Shown in pieces: positions 3,678-64,000 of a DNA stretch of 64,000 nucleotides. A program made the translations under genes and the position numbers. The stretch's first letter is position 1, and each line of letters begins with the position of its first letter. The DNA is from Novosphingobium chloroacetimidivorans (GTDB taxonomy: Bacteria > Pseudomonadota > Alphaproteobacteria > Sphingomonadales > Sphingomonadaceae), in assembly GCF_014204535.1 (NCBI RefSeq), contig NZ_JACHLR010000011.1, positions 62,001 through 126,000 of the forward strand, given 5' to 3'. The notes below the pieces were generated by a model, which saw nothing but the letters and a program-made list of their open reading frames with translations, did no database searches and was not told where the DNA came from.

Positions 3678-3786
3678 CTTCGCTTCCTCATGTCGGTTCG
3701 CACCATCTGGCAACGTGCAACCTGGACACAAGCTGCACGCCGGCTTTCATCGCCGGGGCAGCAGAGACGCCTTGCGTGCGCAAGCA

Positions 3787-3814
3787 TTGACAGGCACGCG
3801 CATCGACTTATGAT
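3787..3814 (+). promoter_or_regulatory. Near-consensus sigma-70-type promoter for the P450 gene
   Basis: TTGACA at 3787-3792 and TATGAT at 3809-3814 with a 16-base spacer. It lies about 55 bases upstream of the P450 ATG and is the best housekeeping-type promoter match I noticed in the chromosomal part of the window. Confidence 0.7.
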
Positions 3815-3867
3815 CCACCGTGTATCATCAACGCCCCATCGAGAGGCGGAACTCCGGAGAGCGATCC

Positions 3868-5151
3868 ATGGCAACTGCAGCCGAACTACCGTTGGCCGAA
3901 CGCAACTACTTCACCGATCACTCGCTGCTGGTGGATCCCTACGCCTACTTCGAAGCGCTGCGCGGCGAAGGACCGATCCACCGCGCGCCCAACGGAGTCG
4001 TGTTCGTGACCGGGTTCCAGGAGTCGGTGGACATCCTCCTCGACACCGAGCATTTTTCCTCCTTCCAGACGCAGCTCGGCCCGTTGGCGCCGCTGCCGTT
4101 CGTGCCCGAGGGCGAGGACTTGTCGGACCAGATCGCCGCGCATCGTGATCCCAACACGATGTCGGAACTGATGGTCAGCTACGATGGCGAGCAGCATGCC
4201 AACGCCCGGTCGCTGCTCAACCGGCTGTTCGTGCCCTCGCGCCTGCGTGCCAACGAGGAGTACATGTGGACCTTCGCCGGCGAGCTCGTCGACGATGCCG
4301 TCGCGCGCGGAGGCTGCGAGCTGATCAGCGAGATCGCGACGCCTTACGTCACGCTGGTCATCGCCGACCTGCTCGGGGTACCCGAGGAGGATCGCGAGAA
4401 GTTCCGCGCGGTGATCGATGCCGGCCCGCCTCCCGGCAGCCTGGACGACGATGGCTACGCACGCGAGAGCCATCCCCTGATGTTCATGGCGCAGTTCTTC
4501 ATGCAGTACGTTGCAGAGCGCCGCGCAAGCCCGCGCGAGGACGTGCTGAGCATGCTCGCCAACGCCAACTTCCCGGACGGCACCCAGCCCGAGGCATTGG
4601 AAGTGGTCAAGTCCGCCATGTTCCTCTTTGCCGCGGGACAGGACACCAGTGCCAAGCTGCTGGGCAATGCCATGCAGCGGGTCGCGCGCGACAAGGCCCT
4701 GCAGTCGCGCCTGCGCACCGATCCCAAGCAGATCGCCGCGTTCCTGGAGGAGACGCTGCGCCTCGAAGGCTCGACCAAGGCGACGTTCCGCCTGGTCAAA
4801 AAGGCGGTCAGGATCGGCGACTATCAGCTGGTGCCGGGCGACCGCGTGTTCGTGGGCCTCGCCGCCGCCAACCGCGATCCGGCCCGCTGGGCGAACCCGA
4901 CCGAGTTCGAGATCGGGCGGCGCAAGATCCAGGAACACCTTGGCTTCGGCCGTGGCGCCCACACGTGCCTTGGCGCACCGCTCGCGCGCGTGGAGGTGAG
5001 AGTCATCTTCGAGCGCTTCTTCGAGAAGACCAGCGACATCTCGCTGAGCGACGAGCACCTGGGACCGGACGGCGAGGTTGAGCTGGACTACGAACCCAGC
5101 TTCATCATCCGCGGCCTATCCAGCCTCAAGCTGAAGCTGCAGCCCGCGTAA
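3868..5151 (+). CDS. Cytochrome P450
   Basis: 427-residue soluble bacterial class I P450. Visible signatures are the I-helix AGQDTS (oxygen activation), the ExxR motif EETLR, and the heme-binding loop GFGRGAHTCLGAPLAR with the thiolate ligand at Cys367. It would hydroxylate a small hydrophobic substrate using electrons from a ferredoxin/ferredoxin reductase, neither of which is encoded nearby. The ATG at 3868 is preferred to an upstream ATG at 3820 because GGAGAG sits 8 bases before it and the extra 16 residues look non-coding. A strong promoter lies at 3787-3814. Neighbouring sulfotransferases, dehydrogenases and an acyl-CoA dehydrogenase suggest a catabolic or modification role; the substrate is unknown. 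Confidence 0.93.
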   Translation: MATAAELPLAERNYFTDHSLLVDPYAYFEALRGEGPIHRAPNGVVFVTGFQESVDILLDTEHFSSFQTQLGPLAPLPFVPEGEDLSDQIAAHRDPNTMSELMVSYDGEQHANARSLLNRLFVPSRLRANEEYMWTFAGELVDDAVARGGCELISEIATPYVTLVIADLLGVPEEDREKFRAVIDAGPPPGSLDDDGYARESHPLMFMAQFFMQYVAERRASPREDVLSMLANANFPDGTQPEALEVVKSAMFLFAAGQDTSAKLLGNAMQRVARDKALQSRLRTDPKQIAAFLEETLRLEGSTKATFRLVKKAVRIGDYQLVPGDRVFVGLAAANRDPARWANPTEFEIGRRKIQEHLGFGRGAHTCLGAPLARVEVRVIFERFFEKTSDISLSDEHLGPDGEVELDYEPSFIIRGLSSLKLKLQPA

Positions 5152-6593: not shown

Positions 6594-6689
6594 CATCGTC
6601 GCCCCCGCGAAGGCGGGGGGCCCGCTTTCTGGCTTCTAGATCGTGCTTGGATAACAAGCGGGGCCCCCGCCTTCGCGGGGGCGACGATG
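6594..6689. repeat. Long inverted repeat (CCCGCGAAGGCGGG family)
   Basis: Two ~34-base arms, the left starting CATCGTCGCCCCCGCGAAGG and the right ending CCTTCGCGGGGGCGACGATG, separated by about 28 bases. Related copies are at 32914-33008 and 43356-43449, with a half copy near 51231. This is a sphingomonad-type intergenic palindromic element. Apart from it, the gap 6471-6772 shows nothing recognisable. Confidence 0.85.
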
Positions 6690-51899: not shown

Positions 51900-52142
51900 A
51901 TGTCAACGCCAAATACTTTTTATTTTTGGGGACGCGCTCTTGCCTTGGCCGTTGATGCCTACCTAGAACGGACCTCGGCCGCAGCGGAAATGTCGGTCGG
52001 GGTCGAATTCGAAAGCACGGATCAGCAAGGTCACAGACAGCGTCTGGGGCCTATGGCGAAGTCGTGCCCTTTGGATGGAACCTCGATGCGAGCGATGCGG
52101 TTCACGGTGGGCAGCTTCAAGACTTGGAGGCGGTTCAGATGA
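51900..52142 (+). CDS. Possible small ORF immediately upstream of dnaA
   Basis: 80 codons beginning MSTPNTFYFWGRALALAVDA in a less GC-rich stretch; the stop overlaps the dnaA ATG (ATGA). It contains a short hydrophobic/aromatic start and a basic end ([18 protein letters not shown]). No family recognised and no obvious ribosome site. It may be a leader ORF coupled to dnaA or a chance frame. I see no DnaA-box cluster here, so this gap is not an evident oriC. Confidence 0.3.
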   Translation: MSTPNTFYFWGRALALAVDAYLERTSAAAEMSVGVEFESTDQQGHRQRLGPMAKSCPLDGTSMRAMRFTVGSFKTWRRFR

Positions 52143-53632
52143 CGGGGACTTCGGGACAGCCGGCGCAGTTTGCGGGCAAGAAAGCGAAATTGGTGCGGGT
52201 GGAAATGGAAGAGGATCAGGAAGCGGTGAACCTGGCGGCCGATTGGGCCGACATCAGCCAGGGCCTGCGCAAGGATCTCGGCCAGCAGGTTCACGGGCAG
52301 TGGATCAAGCCGATCCAGCCGGGCAACTACTGCCCTGAGACCGGCACACTCGATCTCTATCTGCCGACCGAGTTCAGCGCCAACTGGGTGCAGGACCGCT
52401 TCGCCGATCGCCTCTCGCTTGCCTGGAAGATCGCGCGTCCCGACGTGCGGCATGTCCGCATCCTGGTGCACCCCGGCCGCAAGCAGCTGCCCGAGTTGCG
52501 CCTTGGCAGCGGCGGCAACCCGCGCCGGCCCGCCAACGATTCGGCCGCGCAAAGCGACCCGCTCGCCGCCGCGCTGGAAGGCGAGGCCTTCGCCACGCTG
52601 AGCCAGGGCGCCGCGAACATCGACGCTTCGCAGACCTTCGCCAGCTTCGTCACCGGCACCAGCAACGTGCTGGCCGCCAACGCCGCGCAGCGCATGGCCG
52701 CCCCCGAGACGCCGCAGTTCTCGCCGCTCTACCTCAAGGCCGCTACCGGCCAGGGCAAGACGCACCTGCTCCATGCGATCGGCCACGCCTACCTCGCCGC
52801 GCACCCGCATGCGCGGATCTTCTACTGCTCGGCCGAACGCTTCATGGTCGAATTCGTCCAGGCCCTGCGCCAGAACCAGATGATGGAGTTCAAGTCGCGG
52901 CTGCGCGGCTTCGACCTTCTGCTGGTGGACGACATCCAGTTCATCATCGGCAAGGCCAGCGCCCAGGAAGAGCTGCTCTACACGATCGATGCGCTGCTGC
53001 AGGAAGGCAAGCGGCTGGTCTTTGCCGCCGACCGCGCACCGCAAGCTCTGGACGGCGTGGAACCGCGCCTGCTCAGCCGCCTGTCGATGGGCCTCGTCGC
53101 CGACATCCAGTCCGCCGACATCGAGCTGCGCCGCTCGATCCTGGAAAGCCGCCTCACCCGCTTCGCCTCGGTCCAGGTACCAGCCGACGTGATCGAGTTC
53201 CTGGCCCGCACCATCAACCGCAACGTGCGCGAGCTGGTCGGCGGCCTCAACAAGCTGATCGCCTATGCCCAGCTGACCGGACAGGCCGTCTCGCTCCAGC
53301 TCGCCGAAGAGCAGCTGACCGACATCCTGTCGGCCAACCGCCGCCGGATCACCATCGACGAGATCCAGCGCACGGTCTGCCAGTTCTACCGCATCGACAA
53401 GACCGAGATGAGCTCCAAGCGCCGCGCCCGCGCGGTGGTGCGCCCGCGCCAGGTGGCGATGTATCTCGCCAAGGTGCTCACCCCGCGTTCGTACCCGGAG
53501 ATCGGCCGCAAGTTCGGCGGTCGCGATCACTCCACCGTGATCCACGCCGTGCGCCTGATCGAGGAACTGCGCACTCGCGACGCCGACATGGACGGCGACG
53601 TGCGCTCCCTCCTTCGCCAGCTGGAGAGCTGA
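52139..53632 (+). CDS. dnaA: Chromosomal replication initiator DnaA
   Basis: 497 residues. Domain [29 protein letters not shown]+ domain: P-loop [19 protein letters not shown], Walker [14 protein letters not shown], sensor I region [10 protein letters not shown], the arginine-rich [15 protein letters not shown], and the box VII region [11 protein letters not shown] (here [12 protein letters not shown]). DNA-binding domain IV ends with the DnaA signature [12 protein letters not shown]. The first Gly of the usual GxxGxGKT P-loop is Ala here. The ATG at 52139 is chosen over the one at 52205 because GGAGG lies 8 bases before it. Confidence 0.96.
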
Positions 53633-56507: not shown

Positions 56508-57128
56508 TCAGCCTTGCGCCAGCATCTCCTCCACCCACTCGGGCACGATCTGCGTCGCCGGGCCATGCCGCGCCTCGTCGAACCAGCCGGTGCCCTGGCT
56601 CAATCCCAGGTTGAGCTCCAGCGTCATCGCGCCCAGCTCGCGGGCGTTGCGCACGAATCCGGCGGCGGGATAGACCGCGCCCGAGGTGCCGATCGAGACG
56701 AACAGGTCGGCCTCGCGCAGGGCGGCGTCGATCTCGTCCATGTGGTACGGCATCTCTCCGAACCAGACCACGTCGGGCCGCAGCGCTGCCTTCCCGCATG
56801 CAGGACACGGCGGCCGCTCGATCAAGGTCCCGCTCCAGGGCGAGCGGGTGTCGCAGGCGGTGCACCATGCCAGCAAGTGCTCGCCATGCATGTGGAGCAC
56901 GCGGGCCGCGCCGGCACGTTCGTGCAGGTCGTCGATGTTCTGCGTCACGATCAGCAGTTCGCCCGGCCACTCGGCCTCAAGCCTGGCGAGCGCCAGGTGC
57001 GCGGCGTTGGGCTGCTTGGTCTGGATCGCCTCGCGTCGCATGTCGTAGAAGCGCAGCACCAAGTCCGGATCGCGTGCGAAAGCCTCGGGCGTGGCGACGT
57101 CCTCCACCCGATACAAAGTTGTACACAC
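56508..57128 (-). pseudogene. cobB: Sirtuin (NAD-dependent deacylase), 5'-truncated by island insertion
   Basis: 206 codons aligning with CobB from RVEDVATPEAFARDPDLVLRFYDMRR to the end (VPEWVEEMLAQG). Seen: QNIDDLHERAGAARVLHMHGE with the catalytic His, the zinc cysteines C.AC and C.AC (CTAC, CPAC), LRPDVVWFGEMP, IGTSGAVYPAAGFV, ELNLG. The first ~40 residues with the NAD-binding GAG.SAESGI..FR motif are missing; MCTTLY replaces them at the point where phage-like DNA begins. Without this motif the product should be inactive unless an alternative start is restored on excision. Confidence 0.88.
57112..57123. other. Island junction / possible attachment core
   Basis: TACAAAGTTGTA, a short dyad lying exactly where cobB homology ends. 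The DNA character changes here from cobB to phage-type. It may be part of a recombinase core (attL or attR); the partner site is outside the window. Confidence 0.5.
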
Positions 57129-57232
57129 AAGCTAAACGTATTTTTCGTTAGGAGGAATCTTGAAGCGCGCCACGTCGAAAGCTTACAAGGCAGCCTTAGC
57201 TGGCACCTTGCTGCCATCTATATCGTTGGGAT

Positions 57233-57730
57233 ATGAGACCGGCGATGCCTACGATTATCAATCCGATGGACGCGCTCAAGAGCTTCGAGCCTGCCCTCAA
57301 ACGCGGTGAGCTTCAAATTGAATCTGGACGGCTTGACTCCAGCTTGCTGGTCCATCGCGACGAGCCGAATGGCGAATGGCGGATTACCTATGCGAGGATG
57401 AACGGCTCAGCCGTGGCTGCCTTGGCGATCATCGTTCCGGCCGATCCTAAAGATGGCGCTCCTGTATTCCAGATCGGGTACGCAGTTCCCCAGCACCTCA
57501 GAAAACGCGGATTGGGCAAGCGCATCGCGCAAGCGGCAATAGACGAGTTCAGTTCTGGGATGGCAGGTGCTGGGATGAAGCGTTTCTTCTTCGAGGCCAT
57601 TGTGGGCGCGAAGAACTTAGCATCACAGAAGGTCGCGGCGCAGGTGATAGGCGGGGATGCGAAGCGAACCAAAGACGAAGCGTCGGGCGAAGCTGCCTTT
57701 CAATATCTCAAGGAAGTGCGCGCGCCTTAG
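57233..57730 (+). CDS. GNAT-like acetyltransferase
   Basis: 165 residues. The central part has a GNAT fold pattern: ITYARMNGSAVAALAIIVPAD then IGYAVPQHLRKRGLGKRIAQAAIDEF, where RKRGLGKR resembles the acetyl-CoA pyrophosphate loop (R/Q-x-x-G-x-G/A). Then AGMKRFFFEAIVGAKNLASQKVAAQVIG corresponds to the later strand-helix. It may acetylate a small molecule or protein; the target is unknown. First gene of the island. Start 57233 or 57245; neither has a good ribosome site. Confidence 0.65.
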   Translation: MRPAMPTIINPMDALKSFEPALKRGELQIESGRLDSSLLVHRDEPNGEWRITYARMNGSAVAALAIIVPADPKDGAPVFQIGYAVPQHLRKRGLGKRIAQAAIDEFSSGMAGAGMKRFFFEAIVGAKNLASQKVAAQVIGGDAKRTKDEASGEAAFQYLKEVRAP

Positions 57731-57857
57731 CCCCCGCTGATAGCGGCGCGGCCTCCTGAACGTGCGCCAACTCTGCGGCCAACTCATCGAACGAGACGAT
57801 GAGACCGGTGCCTTGATCGGTAATGCCCGTGGCCGGAAAACGCTTCTTAACAAGTGA

Positions 57858-58796
57858 TCAAACTCCCGCCAACCGCAGCCATGCATCATCGTGATCGTCA
57901 GGCGTTGGCGATGATGTCGAGACACAAAGGTCCAACCAAGACGCGGGCTCATCGGGTACCGAGCACCGGGTGCGAGCCTCAATGCGGGTCCAGTTCGGGC
58001 GTGGGTTGTCGATCGCGTCATACACGTCTGACGGCATTTGCTGAACGATCTCGCCCTCAAGCAGCGAGCCTGTGTTTTTCTTCGATCGGGCGCGCGCGCC
58101 GGTAGCGCCGAACGCTCCCCATTGCTTGAAGAAAAAAGGCGTACCCACAGCGCGGCATCGATCGCGAAGGTCACGGTGCCAGTCCGGGTTCGATGGCCGC
58201 ACGGTGCGCGCAACGCCACTCTCGCCGCCGCTGATGAGCCAATCGATCGCGGCCACATCGAGGTTGGGCAAGGCCGAAAGCAATGGTTCGGCAGATACGA
58301 AGCGCACGGATGCCGGGACCTTGAGCAACTCACGAAGACGAGGCCTTGCGTACTTGTCCTCCTCGATCGTGACGCCTGCCCACATGTTCGGGGTCCAAAC
58401 GAGACCAAGTTCCTTGGTCTTTAGTGCCATGCGACTGGGGCGCTTGGTCAGAATTTGATAGCGATGGCGCGAGGTGTTCTGCATCACTCTGAACATCTCG
58501 ATGAGATCGGCGTCCGCGACGTTCTCGTGGAACATATCCGACATCGAGTTGACGAACCAGATTGTAGGCTTCTTCAGGTTCACGGGGCGGAAGAACTCCT
58601 TGTCGTCCGCCCGACCGATCTTACCGGTCCAGTCGATCCGCCCATCATCCTCGACAACTGTTCCCTCGTACTTCTGTACGGTGGACTTGAGACGGTTTGC
58701 CATCACGATCGCATAACAGTGGTCACAACCAGCACTGATCCTTGAACAACCACCAATCGGGTTCCACGTCCTTTCTGTCCATTCGATATCGCTCAT
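57858..58796 (-). CDS. Phage Gp37/Gp68-like (DUF5131) protein
   Basis: 312 residues: TWNPIGGCSRISAGCDHCYAIVMANRL with a Cys cluster (C.....GC..CYA) recalling radical-SAM-like proteins, then FVNSMSDMFHENV, QILTKRP, GVTIEEDKYARPRLRELLKVPASVRFVSAEPLL, WLISGGESG, and FFFKQWGAFG. These are the conserved blocks of the Gp37Gp68 family found in phages and genomic islands; function not established. The frame ends at a TGA, but a further 49 in-frame codons (57708-57857) with plausible composition follow it, so the C-terminus may be truncated by a nonsense mutation. Confidence 0.85.
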   Translation of the reverse strand: MSDIEWTERTWNPIGGCSRISAGCDHCYAIVMANRLKSTVQKYEGTVVEDDGRIDWTGKIGRADDKEFFRPVNLKKPTIWFVNSMSDMFHENVADADLIEMFRVMQNTSRHRYQILTKRPSRMALKTKELGLVWTPNMWAGVTIEEDKYARPRLRELLKVPASVRFVSAEPLLSALPNLDVAAIDWLISGGESGVARTVRPSNPDWHRDLRDRCRAVGTPFFFKQWGAFGATGARARSKKNTGSLLEGEIVQQMPSDVYDAIDNPRPNWTRIEARTRCSVPDEPASWLDLCVSTSSPTPDDHDDAWLRLAGV

Positions 58797-58909
58797 TTGT
58801 GTGTCTCCGACAGGCGCGCGGGATTGCCCCGCAGACGCGGGTTGTTCTGAACTGTGATTTAGATTCTTAGGGCGACCCGATGGTCGCGGCTGGACGCGGC
58901 GCGGGTCAG

Positions 58910-59332
58910 CTACGCCTTAGGACGTGCCACCCAAGCGTCGATGCCATCGCTTGCCCAACGTATCCCGCGCCCACCGACCTCAAGCGGTTTGGGGAAGTCT
59001 GGATTGCGGCGAAGGCGCAACAGAGTGGAGGGTGATATTTGTAGCAGGTCACAGACCTGCTCAACGGTCAGCACCCGCGCTTGACCAATGCGGGCTGGCT
59101 GGGGCTCTACTGGACGTGGCTGCTCAGGTGGACGCGGAGGTACGAACTCGCCCACATCGATATCGAAGTGCTCGTGGACAACGCTACCGGCAGAGAACTC
59201 AGCCAAGGGCCGCCCATTGATCACCCACCCACGGCGGGCTTCCAAGGATACCCGGCTTGTCTCATCCACAGCGCCCGACCGGATGAGGCGGACGAGTTCG
59301 GGCGGCACCGATATGCGAATCTCATCAATCAT
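58910..59332 (-). CDS. AlpA/excisionase-type DNA-binding protein
   Basis: 140 residues. The C-terminal ~60 residues are a MerR-like helix-turn-helix of the AlpA/Xis kind (LTVEQVCDLLQISPSTLLRLRRNPDFPKPLEVGGRGIRWASDGIDAWV). The N-terminal part (MIDEIRISVPPELVRLI...GWVINGRPLAEF) is of unknown type, with a Pro-rich linker (VPPRPPEQPRPVEPQP). It could control excision or the island's regulation; no integrase is visible. It is the second of two minus-strand genes behind the DUF5131 gene. Confidence 0.72.
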   Translation of the reverse strand: MIDEIRISVPPELVRLIRSGAVDETSRVSLEARRGWVINGRPLAEFSAGSVVHEHFDIDVGEFVPPRPPEQPRPVEPQPARIGQARVLTVEQVCDLLQISPSTLLRLRRNPDFPKPLEVGGRGIRWASDGIDAWVARPKA

Positions 59333-59419
59333 CGTGATTGCTCCTGACGACTAAGGTCTATCATCAGAAGGCGTCATGCGCAAGCTTTATCGTCATCACG
59401 CGTCAAGACGCGTCATGGG

Positions 59420-59710
59420 CTACCCGCTGATCTTCTGCATGATCTTGGTCACTGCCTCCGGGTCGGCCTCGATCATGCTCAAGAGCGTACGCGATCCAGC
59501 GTCTGGCATGCGGCGCTCCTGCTCCCAATCTCGAAGGGTACCAAGCGGGATGTGGTACGTCTTGGCGAAGTTGGGCTGAGATAGCTTGGTCTTGGCGCGG
59601 ATAGCCTTGACGTTGGGCGCGGCCACACGGCCACGGCTAGTGTCACCCTGCGCATATGCGAGGGCGTCCTCTAAACCTGCACGGATCAGGTCAAACGCTG
59701 ATTCAGTCAT
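59420..59710 (-). CDS. HTH antitoxin (HigA/NadS-like)
   Basis: 96 residues with a Cro/C1-type helix-turn-helix: NVKAIRAKTKLSQPNFAKTYHIPLGTLRDWEQERRMPD. N-terminal ~30 residues probably contact the toxin. Such proteins neutralise RelE/HigB toxins and repress their own operon. It follows the toxin gene on the same strand with a 57-base gap, the reversed toxin-first order of higBA. Confidence 0.8.
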   Translation of the reverse strand: MTESAFDLIRAGLEDALAYAQGDTSRGRVAAPNVKAIRAKTKLSQPNFAKTYHIPLGTLRDWEQERRMPDAGSRTLLSMIEADPEAVTKIMQKISG

Positions 59711-59767
59711 AAGTTACTTTTCCCGTTCCTGAGCGATATCCCTCGCTCGGGGGTTACAAGCGGGCGC

Positions 59768-60106
59768 TTACCTTCGCCCATAGGTTGCCTTGATCTCCTT
59801 GGTGATCGTAGCGAGTATGTTCTTCTCCTTGTCTGTCAGACTTTCTTTCATCGTCTTTGGGTAGACGGTCAGCAGGAACACCGGGATGTCACCACCACCG
59901 TAGAAGGTGATGACCCGGAACCCGCCCGACTTACCGCCACCTGTTGCTGCAACCCGCACCTTACGCGCGCCTCCGCACCCCTGCATGATCGCGCCCACCG
60001 TGGGGTCGGCAGCGATATAGTCCACCAGTTGGGCGCGCTCATCATCCGAGATTCCAGCTTTGCTGGCTGATGCGAGAAAGGCGTTTGTCTCGATCACGGT
60101 CTGCAT
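59768..60106 (-). CDS. RelE/HigB-type toxin
   Basis: 112 residues: MQTVIETNAFLASASKAGISDDERAQLVDYIAADPTVGAIM then GARKVRVAATGGGKSGGFRVITFYGG and FLLTVYPKTMKESLTDKEKN. The K.R.A..G.GKSGG.RVI.F pattern matches RelE-superfamily toxins that cleave mRNA on the ribosome. It begins just left of twin direct repeats that probably form the antitoxin operator. Confidence 0.8.
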   Translation of the reverse strand: MQTVIETNAFLASASKAGISDDERAQLVDYIAADPTVGAIMQGCGGARKVRVAATGGGKSGGFRVITFYGGGDIPVFLLTVYPKTMKESLTDKEKNILATITKEIKATYGRR

Positions 60107-60116
60107 GAGATCGAAC

Positions 60117-60173
60117 TACGGCATACCAGTACGGCGGTCAATCCGGAATCGTACGGCATGCCAGTATGGCGGT
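60117..60173. promoter_or_regulatory. Twin 22-bp direct repeats between toxin and methyltransferase genes
   Basis: Copies at 60117-60138 and 60152-60173, 20 of 22 bases identical (TACGGCAT-A/G-CCAGTA-C/T-GGCGGT), 35 bases apart start to start. The second copy covers the methyltransferase ATG. Likely a binding site pair for the antitoxin or another island regulator, controlling both directions. Confidence 0.7.
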
Positions 60174-60915
60174 GCAGGCGGCTAAATACCGGGTGCAACC
60201 CCTTTCCCTACACCACGGCAACTGCCTAGACGTTCTGCCCACCATCCCCGATGCCAGCGTTGATGCGATCATCTGTGACCTCCCCTACGCCACCACGAAG
60301 AACGGCTGGGATGTCCTCATTCCGTTTGAACCTTTGTGGGCACAGTATCGGCGTGTCGCCAAGCCGAGCGCACCCATAATCCTTACAGCACAGCAGCCAT
60401 TTACATCGATGTTGGTGGCGAGTAACTACCGCGACTTCAGGTACGAACTCATCTGGGAAAAGAACGCCAGCACCGGATTCTTGAACGCCAAGAAAATGCC
60501 GCTGAAGTCACACGAGTCCATCTTGGTATTTTACAAGCGGCTGCCCACGTACAACCCGCAGATGACTGCTGGAACGCCCTACACGGTGCGGCGTGGATCG
60601 GTACAGTCGAAGAATTACGGCAAGCAGACCGAAGAGACGATCACCGTCAACAACGGTACGCGGTGCCCCAGATCGGTGCTGCGCTTTGACATCGAACGCG
60701 GGGCGCATCCAACACAGAAGCCGGTAGCGCTGATGCGGTACCTGATCGAGACCTTCACCAACCCCGGCGACGTGGTACTCGACAACTGCATGGGCAGCGG
60801 CACCACTGGTGTCGCGTCCATTGCGGCAGGACGCCAGTTCATCGGCATCGAACAGGATGCGGCATATTTCAATATCGCTCACGAAAGAATTACGGGCGCG
60901 AGGGTTGATCAGTAG
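60166..60915 (+). CDS. Beta-class DNA methyltransferase (phage type)
   Basis: 249 residues. Motif IV is DLPYATTKNGWD near residue 38 and the AdoMet motif I is DNCMGSGTTGVA near residue 208, an order typical of beta-class amino-methyltransferases (N6-adenine or N4-cytosine). The HPTQKPVALMRYLIETF block precedes motif I. DLPY replaces the more usual DPPY, as in several phage enzymes. It probably protects the element's DNA or regulates it; no partner restriction enzyme is visible. The ATG overlaps the second direct repeat. Confidence 0.88.
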   Translation: MAVQAAKYRVQPLSLHHGNCLDVLPTIPDASVDAIICDLPYATTKNGWDVLIPFEPLWAQYRRVAKPSAPIILTAQQPFTSMLVASNYRDFRYELIWEKNASTGFLNAKKMPLKSHESILVFYKRLPTYNPQMTAGTPYTVRRGSVQSKNYGKQTEETITVNNGTRCPRSVLRFDIERGAHPTQKPVALMRYLIETFTNPGDVVLDNCMGSGTTGVASIAAGRQFIGIEQDAAYFNIAHERITGARVDQ

Positions 60916-61107
60916 GGTGGCGTTGCTACATGGCGCGCGAGTGGTGGAGTTTACGCGACCATTCGCCACCGCCCAACTTCCTCATTTCAATTTTGCATTC
61001 GCCATCGTCGATCCTGTACAAGGATCACGCGTTGAATGGCTTCAACGCTTGATATCTCGCTTGTCTGGGCTCGATCGTGGAAGTGACGATCGGGCCCTAA
61101 TCATTTA

Positions 61108-61136
61108 TTGAACGGTGGTTTCATCCGGGGTATAAA
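61108..61136 (+). promoter_or_regulatory. Sigma-70-type promoter in the island
   Basis: TTGAAC at 61108-61113, a 17-base spacer, then TATAAA at 61131-61136. It lies between the methyltransferase and HNH genes, about 70 bases ahead of a terminator. Confidence 0.65.
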
Positions 61137-61142
61137 TACTAC

Positions 61143-61243
61143 TGAAAGTTAGCTTAACTCCCCTTTGGTTGCTTTCTCTCGATCCCGTATAGATGTCTTA
61201 CAGAGAAACCCCACTGGTCAGCGCCGGTGGGGTTTCTTGTTTT
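61143..61243 (+). ncRNA. Candidate small RNA of about 100 nt
   Basis: Predicted from a promoter (TTGAAC-N17-TATAAA) followed at RNA-gene distance by a strong terminator (61205-61244) with no convincing open frame between. The 5' part holds a small hairpin AGTTAGCTTAACT. Boundaries are estimates from promoter and terminator, not from expression. Confidence 0.45.
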
Positions 61244-61244
61244 C
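61205..61244 (+). terminator. Rho-independent terminator in the island
   Basis: Long stem GAAACCCCACTGG / CCGGTGGGGTTTC with a TCAGCG loop, followed by TTGTTTTC. Near-symmetric, so it could act on both strands. Confidence 0.88.
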
Positions 61245-61297
61245 GGCACAAAATAGCCTTTAAAACGGTATGATTTTCTAAATTTAGTAAATACAAC

Positions 61298-61855
61298 ATG
61301 TTAAGACATGTTGAAAGCACCCGCGCGGCTTACAAGCGCGACATATCGCACGAGCAACTCCTCTCGCTGGTCCACTATGATCCAGAAACAGGAGACTTCA
61401 CTCTAATCAGGGATACAGCCAACAGGAAGGCTGGTGATCGACTTGGCAACTACAACAAGCGGACTAGGTATACTTACGTCGGCATCTTCGGTCATAAGGT
61501 AGCGGCTCATCGTGTGGCGTACTTCTGGATGACCGGTGACTGGCCACCATCTGACATGGATCACATCAACGGGGATCGCGGCGATAACCGGTGGTGCAAC
61601 CTTCGTCCGTGCTCTCGCAGTGAGAACCTCCAGAACCGCGTCGGATTCGCCAAGTCTGGTCACAAGTTGATCGTGATCAGCAAGACGCCGCGCGGTCATA
61701 CCCGGTACTACTGCCGCATCGGTCGCAATGGACGAACAATCAACAGTCCAACTTTCTATGATCTTGAAGCCGCGCTCGCATGGCGGGACGAATGGCTTCG
61801 GTGCAACGGCACGGCGTTCACGAACACGAGCCATATCAACGACCTGACGAACTGA
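61298..61855 (+). CDS. HNH endonuclease with AP2-like domain
   Basis: 185 residues. N-terminal region with SLVHYDPETGDFTLIRDTANRKAGDRLGNYNKRTRYTYVGIFGHKVAAHRVAYFWMTGDWPPSDMDHINGDRGDNRWCNLRPCSRSENLQN; the DMDHINGDR...N.CNLR part is the HNH nuclease core. The C-terminus (KTPRGHTRYYCRIGRNGRTINSPTFYDLEAALAWRDEWL) resembles an AP2 DNA-binding fold. Such freestanding homing-type nucleases are common in phages. The ATG at 61298 has no clear ribosome site. Confidence 0.85.
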   Translation: MLRHVESTRAAYKRDISHEQLLSLVHYDPETGDFTLIRDTANRKAGDRLGNYNKRTRYTYVGIFGHKVAAHRVAYFWMTGDWPPSDMDHINGDRGDNRWCNLRPCSRSENLQNRVGFAKSGHKLIVISKTPRGHTRYYCRIGRNGRTINSPTFYDLEAALAWRDEWLRCNGTAFTNTSHINDLTN

Positions 61856-62002
61856 TCTTAAAGATACGTAACCCCAAAAACAGGAAAGTGAGCCGGGGCG
61901 AAGGTCCCGGTTCAAAAAATAAACGGCTCGGTCGAATGATATGGATCGGCCTCAATCGACTTCTCTACAGAGACACAATCTTGCCAACTATGGAGATAAG
62001 AC

Positions 62003-62839
62003 ATGTACTTTAAGAACGACCATCACGAACTACGCTTTATCGACACTGGTCGCGATCCCGAGCCGGTTCGTAAGCCGTCACCTCGCGCCTTGATGAGCGA
62101 AGCCTACCAGACCGTTATAGGCATAGCCCAAGCTGACCCGGCCATGATGGCGGAGCTTCAAGATTGGCTGATGATGGACCACATCAAACCAACCAAGCGC
62201 AAGACCCACCCTATGCCGCTCGCGCCTGAGTTGATCGAGGTTAGCATCTGGGACAACTGGGACAACGGTAAGCCCGTTAAGGGGCAGCCAAACAGGTATG
62301 GCGTCAACATCAAGGCGTGGGCGAGCGCGGCCGATGTTGACTTTCGGAAGCTCGATCAAGTTGACTGGTCCGGACGGGTCTCGCTGATGCCACCGGCAGA
62401 CTTGCGCAAGGTGAGTAAAAAGGCTCAGCAGAAGAAGGGCGCGATGAAGGAGGGTAAATGGTCTCCGGGTCAGGTCTACCCCATCAGTCCGGAATACGCC
62501 GCGATGATCGAGACCGCTTGCGTCACCATGGAGGTGAACGCGTTGCAAGGTGGCCTACTCGTGACCAAGATTTATGGCGAAGGCACCCTGCGACATGAAA
62601 AGCAGATGATGCTGGTGGATACGGCAGCAGTGACGGCGGGTGATACCAACGCGACAGCGGTCATATGGGTCGATGACGAGACGCCGATCCAGTTGCCCGC
62701 TTGGTCCACCTGTGACGCGGCTGGCAAGCCACTCCCAGAAAGCTACAATGACAAGAACGGCAAGCACGCCAAGTGCGTCATGCAGTGCCGCTACGCGTTG
62801 GATACGGACCGCTTTCGTGGATGGGTCACCGGTACCTAA
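62003..62839 (+). CDS. Hypothetical island protein
   Basis: 278 residues, family not recognised. A good ribosome site (GGAGA 8 bases before the ATG). Charged, soluble, with Trp-rich parts (ISIWDNWDNGKPVKGQPNRYGV, VDFRKLDQVDWSGRVSLMPP), a KVSKKAQQKKGAMKEGKW basic stretch and a later half that looks beta-rich (NALQGGLLVTKIYGEGTLRHEKQMMLVDTAAV...AVIWVDDETPIQLPAW). A promoter-like CTACAGAGA lies about 30 bases upstream. Confidence 0.7.
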   Translation: MYFKNDHHELRFIDTGRDPEPVRKPSPRALMSEAYQTVIGIAQADPAMMAELQDWLMMDHIKPTKRKTHPMPLAPELIEVSIWDNWDNGKPVKGQPNRYGVNIKAWASAADVDFRKLDQVDWSGRVSLMPPADLRKVSKKAQQKKGAMKEGKWSPGQVYPISPEYAAMIETACVTMEVNALQGGLLVTKIYGEGTLRHEKQMMLVDTAAVTAGDTNATAVIWVDDETPIQLPAWSTCDAAGKPLPESYNDKNGKHAKCVMQCRYALDTDRFRGWVTGT

Positions 62840-63339
62840 CTTCTCTATTAGAAAAGTTATTAGCAATGGGTCGAAAGACACACATCTTATTAATAGAGAA
62901 GTGCCCTTCGATCCATCGGCTTCGCCGCTGTCTCATCGGGCTCTCATTTAAGAAGCAGTTGTCTTACGACGCCTTTTCTCAGATAGCCGTTAAATTCGAC
63001 ATGATTAAGGTTGTCATGACTTCTATAACAGAGAAGGCCCGAAGGCCTTCTAGGCCATAAGATGCGGTCTCACGACCCCGTTCATTGATCGCCATTATGG
63101 TGGCCGTGATTAGATGTGTCATGTGAGCTCTAATAGAGATGTGGCTTGCGCCCCATCAACTCATAAGTGGTGGTCCCAAAGACCACATATGTCATCGAAT
63201 CCATTATGGTGCCGGTCATTGACCGGAAAATTGATCCAATTATGCGACGGGGGCGAGCGCAGCGAGGCACTGGGCGGCTCGACGGGGCGGCGCGGCACGT
63301 GAATTTGAATATGAGAAGGGCCGAACGCGAAAGCCGCGC
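62840..63339. other. Mostly non-coding island region with repeated short motifs
   Basis: 500 bases containing three of the five AYAGAGA motifs (62893, 63029, 63134), two copies of CATYGAWNNCCATTATGGTG (63083, 63193), and a perfect hairpin AGAAGGCC-CGAA-GGCCTTCT at 63032-63051. One weak frame crosses it (62866-63060). The rest shows no coding potential that I can support. Confidence 0.5.
62866..63060 (+). CDS. Weak candidate ORF
   Basis: 64 codons, MGRKTHILLIEKCPSIHRLR then FSQIAVKFDMIKVVMTSITEKARRPSRP. Reasonable amino-acid mix but no ribosome site, and its end overlaps a repeated motif and a hairpin. Probably not a gene. Confidence 0.25.
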   Translation: MGRKTHILLIEKCPSIHRLRRCLIGLSFKKQLSYDAFSQIAVKFDMIKVVMTSITEKARRPSRP

Positions 63340-63513
63340 TTAGGCCGTCACCCGTGCGAGCACTCGCCATCCCCAGATCACCAGCAGCGCGCCCACAAAT
63401 GTAGCAGCCGCCTCCACCCCGGAGATGGCTGGAAATAGTCGGATGACCACAAGATCGATTAAGGTGGCGTTCAGCAGGTCATAGCCGTGCGCCATATTGG
63501 CTAACGTCTTCAT
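63340..63513 (-). CDS. Small membrane protein (holin-like candidate)
   Basis: 57 residues: MKTLANMAHGYDLLNATLID, then LVVIRLFPAISGVEAAATFV, then GALLVIWGWRVLARVTA. The second half (AAATFVGALLVIWGWRVLARV) is a clear transmembrane helix with a basic end; the first half may be a second one. Size and neighbourhood with an endolysin suggest a holin or spanin-type role, but it is on the opposite strand, which would be unusual. Role is inferred only. Confidence 0.5.
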   Translation of the reverse strand: MKTLANMAHGYDLLNATLIDLVVIRLFPAISGVEAAATFVGALLVIWGWRVLARVTA

Positions 63514-63520
63514 TTCAGAG

Positions 63521-63542
63521 GGCTAACTCCGAAGGAGTTAGC
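63521..63542. repeat. Perfect short hairpin between holin-like and endolysin genes
   Basis: GCTAACTCC-GAA-GGAGTTAGC, a 9-bp perfect stem with a 3-base loop, lying between the divergent small membrane protein and endolysin genes. A partial repeat AAGGAGTTA follows directly. Possibly a regulatory hairpin or protein site. Confidence 0.6.
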
Positions 63543-63598
63543 AAGGAGTTACTTCTAGCAGCGGCTCATCCACTTCGCACGCGCGCATAAGTTCATGA

Positions 63599-64000
63599 AT
63601 GGAACTTAATGATAACACGCTCTCAGCAGCGTTCCCGCGTCTCAAACCCGCAACTCGCAGCATGATCCTTGAGGCAAGTACCCCGGCGATCGAGCGGTAT
63701 GAGATCAACACCACCCGGCGCTTGGCGTGCTGGTTGGCTCAATGTTACCACGAAAGTGCCGGGTTCACCGCGCGGGTCGAGAACCTCAACTACTCGGCGG
63801 CTGGCCTCCTCGCGACATGGCCGAAGCGTTTCACCAAAACCACCGCCACGCTTTACGCCCGGCAACCCGAAAAGATCGCCAATCGCGTATACGCGGGTCG
63901 TAACGGCTGCGGTGATGAGGCGTCTGGCCATGGTTGGCTGACACGCGGCCGAGGCTTCATCCAGCTTACCGGGATGGACAACTACAAGGCATTTGCGAAA
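63599..64000 (+). CDS. GH19-family endolysin/chitinase (partial)
   Basis: Starts MELNDNTLSAAFPRLKPATR and runs off the window after 134 codons. The glycoside hydrolase 19 pattern is clear: CWLAQCYHESAGFTARVENLNYSAAGLLATWPKRF, then EKIANRVYAGRNGCGDEASGHGWLTRGRGFIQLTGMDNYKAF. The Glu in HESAGF is the probable general acid, and RGFIQLTG.DNY is the conserved later loop. Phage GH19 enzymes cut peptidoglycan for lysis. Start 63599 is the in-frame ATG; a second ATG lies at 63662. Confidence 0.85.
   Translation, partial: MELNDNTLSAAFPRLKPATRSMILEASTPAIERYEINTTRRLACWLAQCYHESAGFTARVENLNYSAAGLLATWPKRFTKTTATLYARQPEKIANRVYAGRNGCGDEASGHGWLTRGRGFIQLTGMDNYKAFAK

Follow-up and report, generated by a model that had tools for sequence, protein, structure and literature searches.

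The A118-type phages in Listeria comK and Bxb1 in groEL1 are serine-integrase prophages that reside in protein-coding genes. The locus described here resembles such large serine integrase prophages in its integrase domains, its 2-bp core, an att site within coding sequence and a host gene cut in two, but differs in its target, which is the sirtuin gene cobB. Frequent disruption of conserved protein genes by serine integrases is reported in the main text of a large survey (PMC10083194), a main text from which the words 'sirtuin', 'SIR2' and 'deacetylase' are absent. The term regulated gene integrity, and the switches that it denotes, come from a portion of PMC10111431 that also deals with elements bringing a replacement piece of the gene they enter (icd, tRNA). 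The prophage studied here (genome G000) and a related element in N. clariflavum 164 (G047) are like regulated gene integrity elements in that the host gene is disrupted, no second copy was found and the disruption is reversible in principle. Disruption of the target with no replacement in the element, a mark of that class, was seen in G000 and G047, whereas a sister element in a further genome (G152) carries a replacement gene. The G152 element and a scar in genome G006 supply a whole cobB reading frame, which likens them to the icd and tRNA elements; there the replacement is short and lies within attP, whereas in G152 a whole gene lies ~90 bp inside the junction and the phage of the window has none. 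The sequence-only reading of this DNA had called cobB an unusual attachment gene, and no description of cobB as an attachment site was found in the literature searched (titles, abstract starts and best matches). Within that literature cobB looks undescribed as an integration target, while the kind of event is well known.

The cobB 3' part and the right end of the prophage

The window, which is the whole 64,000-nucleotide stretch that was analysed, corresponds to G000:C11:62001-126000 in a draft assembly of 88 contigs. Its features at and beyond cobB were as follows.

56508-57104, minus strand: host half of cobB, its 3' part beginning at the E of R-V-E-D; matches the SIR2 model at positions 25-180 alone, without what we take to be the GAGxS stretch
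57103-57104, unstranded: central dinucleotide GA (TC on the plus strand) of attR, the inferred crossover point, from the centre of arm symmetry and comparison with G047, G144 and G152
57105-57149, minus strand: phage arm of attR (the P half-site), with a TACAAC motif at 13 nt from GA; contains the dyad at 57112-57123 and an outer repeat at 57118-57131
57105-64000, unstranded: right end of the prophage; GC 0.58; PHROG and Pfam matches; continues to C11:147962, an insertion sequence and then C21:1-11935
57233-57730, plus strand: GNAT-like acetyltransferase, first gene called inside the prophage; PF00583, E=4e-4, 21.1 bits against a cut-off of 20.7
57858-58796, minus strand: DUF5131 protein; PF07505, E=9e-84; phrog_2045
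58910-59332, minus strand: AlpA/HTH_17 DNA-binding protein that may act as a regulator or directionality factor; PF12728, PF05930; phrog_66 excisionase/regulator, E=3e-8
59420-59710, minus strand: putative antitoxin-like protein pairing with the RelE toxin; matches phrog_2104 (no known function) and nothing in Pfam
59768-60106, minus strand: RelE-family toxin; PF06296, E=3e-9
60166-60915, plus strand: phage DNA methyltransferase; phrog_67, E=6e-78
61298-61855, plus strand: HNH endonuclease; phrog_99, E=1e-44
63599-64000, plus strand: endolysin, running past the window to C11:126213; phrog_181, E=1e-63

On the minus strand, an ORF of 206 aa (56508-57128) gave a Pfam SIR2 match from model position 25 to 180 only, in keeping with the earlier observation that CobB similarity starts abruptly at RVEDV without an N-terminus. 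The similarity starts there because the inferred crossover GA (57103-57104) falls in that E codon. The ORF stays open into the phage arm, which provides its first 24 nt (57105-57128) and a GTG start codon. Model positions 1-24, which are kept in relatives and are missing from this ORF, presumably include the NAD-binding GAGxS stretch. Beyond the junction, GC falls from 0.690 in kilobase 56-57 to 0.582 in kilobase 57-58 and stays at 0.58 through the remainder of the contig, and the genes there have phage matches in PHROG and Pfam; the change to AT-richer, phage-type DNA had been correctly recognized from the letters. On the host side, a DnaA-like gene (window 52064-53632, found by eye) lies ~3 kb from the cobB 3' part.

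C11 encodes the large subunit of a terminase, a portal, a head maturation protease, a major head protein, a tail terminator, a tape measure, a distal tail protein, a tail fibre and the endolysin, and C21 carries tail-fibre-like genes and an integrase gene, such that the terminase, portal, head, tail, lysis and integrase genes all lie between attL and attR (C11 plus C21). The prophage occupies 28.9 kb of C11 and 11.9 kb of C21, or ~40.6 kb without the ends of the insertion sequence. From this gene set it would be a temperate tailed phage, siphovirus-like; its terminase matches were 37-39% identical (best 10 of 1417 phage records). The GNAT-like gene at 57233-57730 is directly beside the broken deacylase gene, its Pfam match being weak; it had no PHROG match, and by eye no such gene was seen beside the right junctions of G047 and N. 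panipatense P5:ABC (G144) among the ORFs listed. The region 59420-60106 and positions 3732-4326 of locus L037 (G047) each hold a pair of genes that fall into two shared PHROG families, of which one is RelE-like. A gene for a PEP-CTERM protein (C11:128670-129494, PF07589), a host-type surface protein and possible cargo, is also located within the prophage.

The far end: the cobB 5' part and an integrase on a second contig

C11 and C21 have no sequence overlap, and their putative join rests on the repeat of an insertion sequence together with the complementary halves of cobB. The C11 end sequence starts with GTAAGCGTCCGGT, adjoining CCCGCAGG, and recurs at the ends of C2, C63, C43 and C13; C56 has a shorter stretch that matches it at 93%. 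C21 starts with the end of an ORF, followed by an inverted copy of the terminal repeat GTAAGCGTCCGGT and then CCCGCAGG again. The insertion sequence, which we take to be of the IS66 kind, has 13-bp terminal repeats and an 8-bp target repeat CCCGCAGG at C11:147860-147867 and C21:96-103. The contig break between C11 and C21 is explained by this insertion sequence, and because the same 8-bp target repeat is found on both contigs the two are tied together. The insertion sequence appears to sit in a tail gene, whose two parts read in the same frame relative to the target repeat, and this copy of the prophage may be defective as a result.

The far end of the island had been named as the place to look for the rest of cobB and for an integrase, and both were found there. 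The cobB 5' part occupies C21:11932-12045, with a SIR2 match (positions 1-29) at C21:11929-12012 on the minus strand, and is followed by a phage arm and an integrase ORF that starts 40 bp after GA (C21:11936-11937). GC is 0.59 for C21 up to 11.9 kb and 0.68 for 12.0-20.0 kb.

C21:10168-11895, minus strand: serine integrase, 575 aa, with Resolvase, Recombinase and zinc-ribbon domains

The domains occur in the order PF00239, PF07508, PF13408, all above cut-off, and the protein matches phrog_95 (integrase, E=9e-65). It is 45% identical to the G047 integrase, with R17, S19, Q31, D94, R95, L96 and R98 invariant between the two; its best match among phage proteins was 28% identical (best 10 of 60 records). 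By spacing, matched by eye and with no alignment to Bxb1, these seven residues fit Bxb1 residues given in a part of PMC12884075. By domains, catalytic serine and pocket residues, and att-site form, the predicted protein thus carries the sequence marks of a phage-type large serine integrase.

A SIR2 profile search of the G000 assembly returned two matches, the 3' part in the window and the 5' piece on C21, and no further Sir2 beyond the split cobB. Judged from the domain model, neither half of the gene retains a whole Sir2 domain. Because of this, and since the assembly search yielded no second Sir2, the lysogen should be without CobB: it is most likely CobB-negative and would have lost the enzyme activity. 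The original proposal that a phage island interrupts cobB is borne out, with the 3' part and AT-richer phage genes in the window and the 5' part at the far end.

Attachment site and probable crossover point

Next to the crossover, sequence common to both junctions is limited to CGGGT and, after one unlike base, GAG. So short a shared core is the expectation for a serine integrase. A matching core had been anticipated and is present in this short form at both junctions, but there is no long direct repeat. Similarly, the dyad TACAAAGTTGTA that had been taken to mark the junction is present at 57112-57123, but it belongs to the P arm, and the crossover is placed at GA (57103-57104).

We took nine half-sites towards the central GA: attL and attR of G000, G047, G144 and G152, and attL of G006. 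All nine have a TACAAC/GAAC-type motif at an equal distance from GA. Identity of P to P' about GA was 16/30 in G000, 21/30 in G047, 21/30 in G144 and 19/30 in G152, with cases that partly repeat, the G144 element being a near-copy of that in G047; 13, 0, 0 and 0 of 20000 shuffles, respectively, reached the observed symmetry. Shifting the centre by 1-14 bases gave a symmetry of at most 13. Immediately before GA, attL has A in G000, G in G047, C in G144, C in G152 and G in G006, and all four attR have G; such variation in attL would be expected if this base came from the host's Val codon. In G000 that codon is GTA, which counts against GA since it occurred in 0/23 intact-gene rows (21 distinct genomes; rows matching one pattern, from 48 loci of 46 genomes tried). 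GT could thus conceivably be the crossover for the G000 phage alone, yet symmetry about GT was only 7/30 in G000, and the G144 attR reads ATGGA, leaving GT as no core there unless mutated. GT had been our first choice of core and was dropped when attR of G144 was seen to be without it and the symmetry test favoured GA. From these comparisons, we infer that the exact crossover dinucleotide is GA.

Reconstructed from the two junctions, attP has the form of inverted half-sites, and attB is unlike attP. The attB sequence is well conserved among the intact genes matched by pattern. An intact attP was not found: a degenerate pattern matched 0/397 family genomes, and it matched three viral contigs with no integrase relative in the sequence stretch examined.

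The same site in other Novosphingobium genomes

SIR2 matches were obtained in 184/195 Novosphingobium genomes and in 147/149 of the good ones. The best match had E <= 4.7e-37 in 176/184; the other eight genomes were G000, G047, G037, G216, G214, G020, G224 and G225. Among the matches listed, those in relatives span the whole model, so that relatives have a longer, full-model cobB rather than an equally short one, the result that would have spoken against an interruption. We checked singly those genomes whose best match was weak or that had more than one match, a scheme from which very short sub-threshold fragments may escape. cobB is split at the same GA in 4/195 genomes, namely G000, G047, G144 and G152. 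Fragments in other genomes were set aside: the G020 match runs to base 6612 of 6617, a contig-end effect, as are the matches in G224, G225, G216, G214 and G172, which reach the end of the examined locus. G037 (L038, G037:C107) was left uncounted as a 68%-complete genome; there the cobB 5' end is missing, with a break within a few bases of GA against an apparent dapB start.

Over 5.6 kb on the attL side, the elements in G047 and G144 shared 99.0% identity; on the attR side, two matching stretches, of 580 bases (98.4%) and 295 bases (96.9%), were separated by sequence without a match. Identity of the host flanks was 94.0% (781 bp) and 90.3% (621 bp). We read this as one element that probably entered two species. 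No blastn similarity was seen between the G000 element and those of G047 and G144 in the element parts compared. None of the 10 G047 element proteins searched had a structural PHROG match, and the G144 element carries a phage lysozyme; both elements are likely of phage nature. In the 5 kb of the G152 element examined, the proteins searched included a DNA methylase but none that matched a phage structural family. As in G000, no other Sir2 was present in G047, while G144 has a distant Sir2 (48% identical, C26).

In a tree of 47 serine integrases made by a quick method, those from the four cobB sites group together as a single clade (SH-aLRT 95); the G152 row covers 35% of columns, and L100, L101 and L127 were omitted as repeats of L057, L058 and L059. 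Across the genus, cobB adjoins the integrase at 4/25 loci (up to 7 candidates scored per genome, ~1500-base flanks). In a family search of 397 genomes (E <= 1e-60, up to 3 candidates scored per genome) cobB was beside 1/13 loci, that of G000 itself, and a contig-database search gave 12 loci with cobB only at L100 and L101, which are G144 and G047 themselves. The sole viral contig with an integrase relative (L112) had no cobB match; by eye, an ArsC-like ORF adjoins its integrase.

Replacement and restoration of cobB

The G152 element carries a complete cobB of 237 aa (L083 2058-1345, minus strand), which comes after the host 5' piece and lies ~90 bp into the element. The GC3 of the 3' part is 0.527 in this element cobB and 0.741 in the host's own gene, and the two 3' parts are 84.1% identical in protein. 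The element gene may have been captured from a related host, its composition since drifting towards that of the element. A 298-kb viral contig (L117) encodes a Sir2 protein 41% identical to this element-borne CobB. In G006 (L040, G006:C11:169000-174000), the original 5' piece (GC3 0.914) is found with the P' arm, and 551 bp on a second cobB 5' end (GC3 0.611) reads in frame into the 3' part. This arrangement resembles the scar of an element that would have brought its own 5' end or gene and was later lost by recombination. No replacement cobB was found in G000 or G047. Together, G152 and G006 suggest compensation for the loss of cobB rather than a use of it.

Discussion

We hold with high confidence that a phage with a large serine integrase integrated in cobB at GA, leaving attL on C21, attR in the window and a lysogen predicted to lack CobB. 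The case is built from sequence, namely both junctions, the integrase, the phage genes, the link through the insertion sequence, a site shared by three further genomes and a single integrase clade. A temperate tailed phage of ~40.6 kb, now with one insertion sequence, would integrate in Novosphingobium cobB by its own large serine integrase, recombining an attP, in which inverted half-sites of the TACAAC type flank GA, with an attB supplied by the coding sequence of cobB. Codon 37 (Glu of R-V-E-D) begins with this GA, and crossover there would produce attL, consisting of the cobB 5' part, the P' arm and the integrase (C21), and attR, consisting of the P arm and the cobB 3' part (window). Excision would be expected to restore cobB.

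As to why cobB is the target, the site was probably chosen for its conservation only, the gene being a mere landing site whose loss is neutral or mildly costly. This agrees with the conserved attB in intact genes, with the related integrases of the same family that have no adjacent cobB, and with the serine-integrase disruption of conserved genes described in the survey text (PMC10083194). The presence of SIR2 in nearly all good genomes, and of one element with its own cobB, argues in the other direction, that the gene is not plainly dispensable.

It is unlikely, though conceivable, that integration and excision turn CobB off and on to the benefit of phage or host, along the lines of the excision-linked phenotype switch proposed in the sequence-only reading. 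The disruption is precise and in principle reversible, a second Sir2 is absent in G000 and G047, gene-integrity switches are on record in the part of PMC10111431 cited above, and deletion of E. coli cobB raises the burst size of T4 according to a passage in a review (PMC5957327). Set against this are the insertion sequence within a tail gene of the prophage, the full replacement cobB of G152 and the restored gene of G006, which suggest that CobB loss is costly, and the statement in the main text of the large survey that target genes of serine recombinases show no enrichment in or close to anti-phage genes (PMC10083194). Slightly more doubtful is a fuller version, in which an integrase clade would be specialised on the sirtuin gene: lysogeny would turn CobB off, shift acylation and remove a phage-restricting factor, excision would turn CobB on, and some lineages would carry their own cobB against the cost. 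The acetyltransferase-like gene beside the cut would fit such a specialisation.

That the 206-aa ORF is translated from the GTG in the phage arm, yielding a truncated CobB with some function kept, seems very improbable. The ORF is indeed open into the arm with a start codon, and its counterparts in G047 and G144 likewise start in the arm, in frame; what it lacks is SIR2 positions 1-24, kept in relatives, where the NAD-binding GAGxS stretch would lie. An assembly chimera that wrongly joined phage DNA to cobB, as a draft with the cobB halves on different contigs might invite, can be dismissed almost entirely given the matched half-sites centred on the same dinucleotide at both junctions, the same split in G047, G144 and G152, and a contig break accounted for by the target repeat of the insertion sequence.

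The preferred reading, an integrase-mediated insertion at GA in cobB, has two consequences. Inferred attB/attP pairs are now mapped for a clade of serine integrases and would be possible tools in sphingomonads. In addition, the cobB-negative, cobB-replaced and cobB-restored relatives form a natural set in which the role of a sirtuin in phage growth and lysogeny may be studied.
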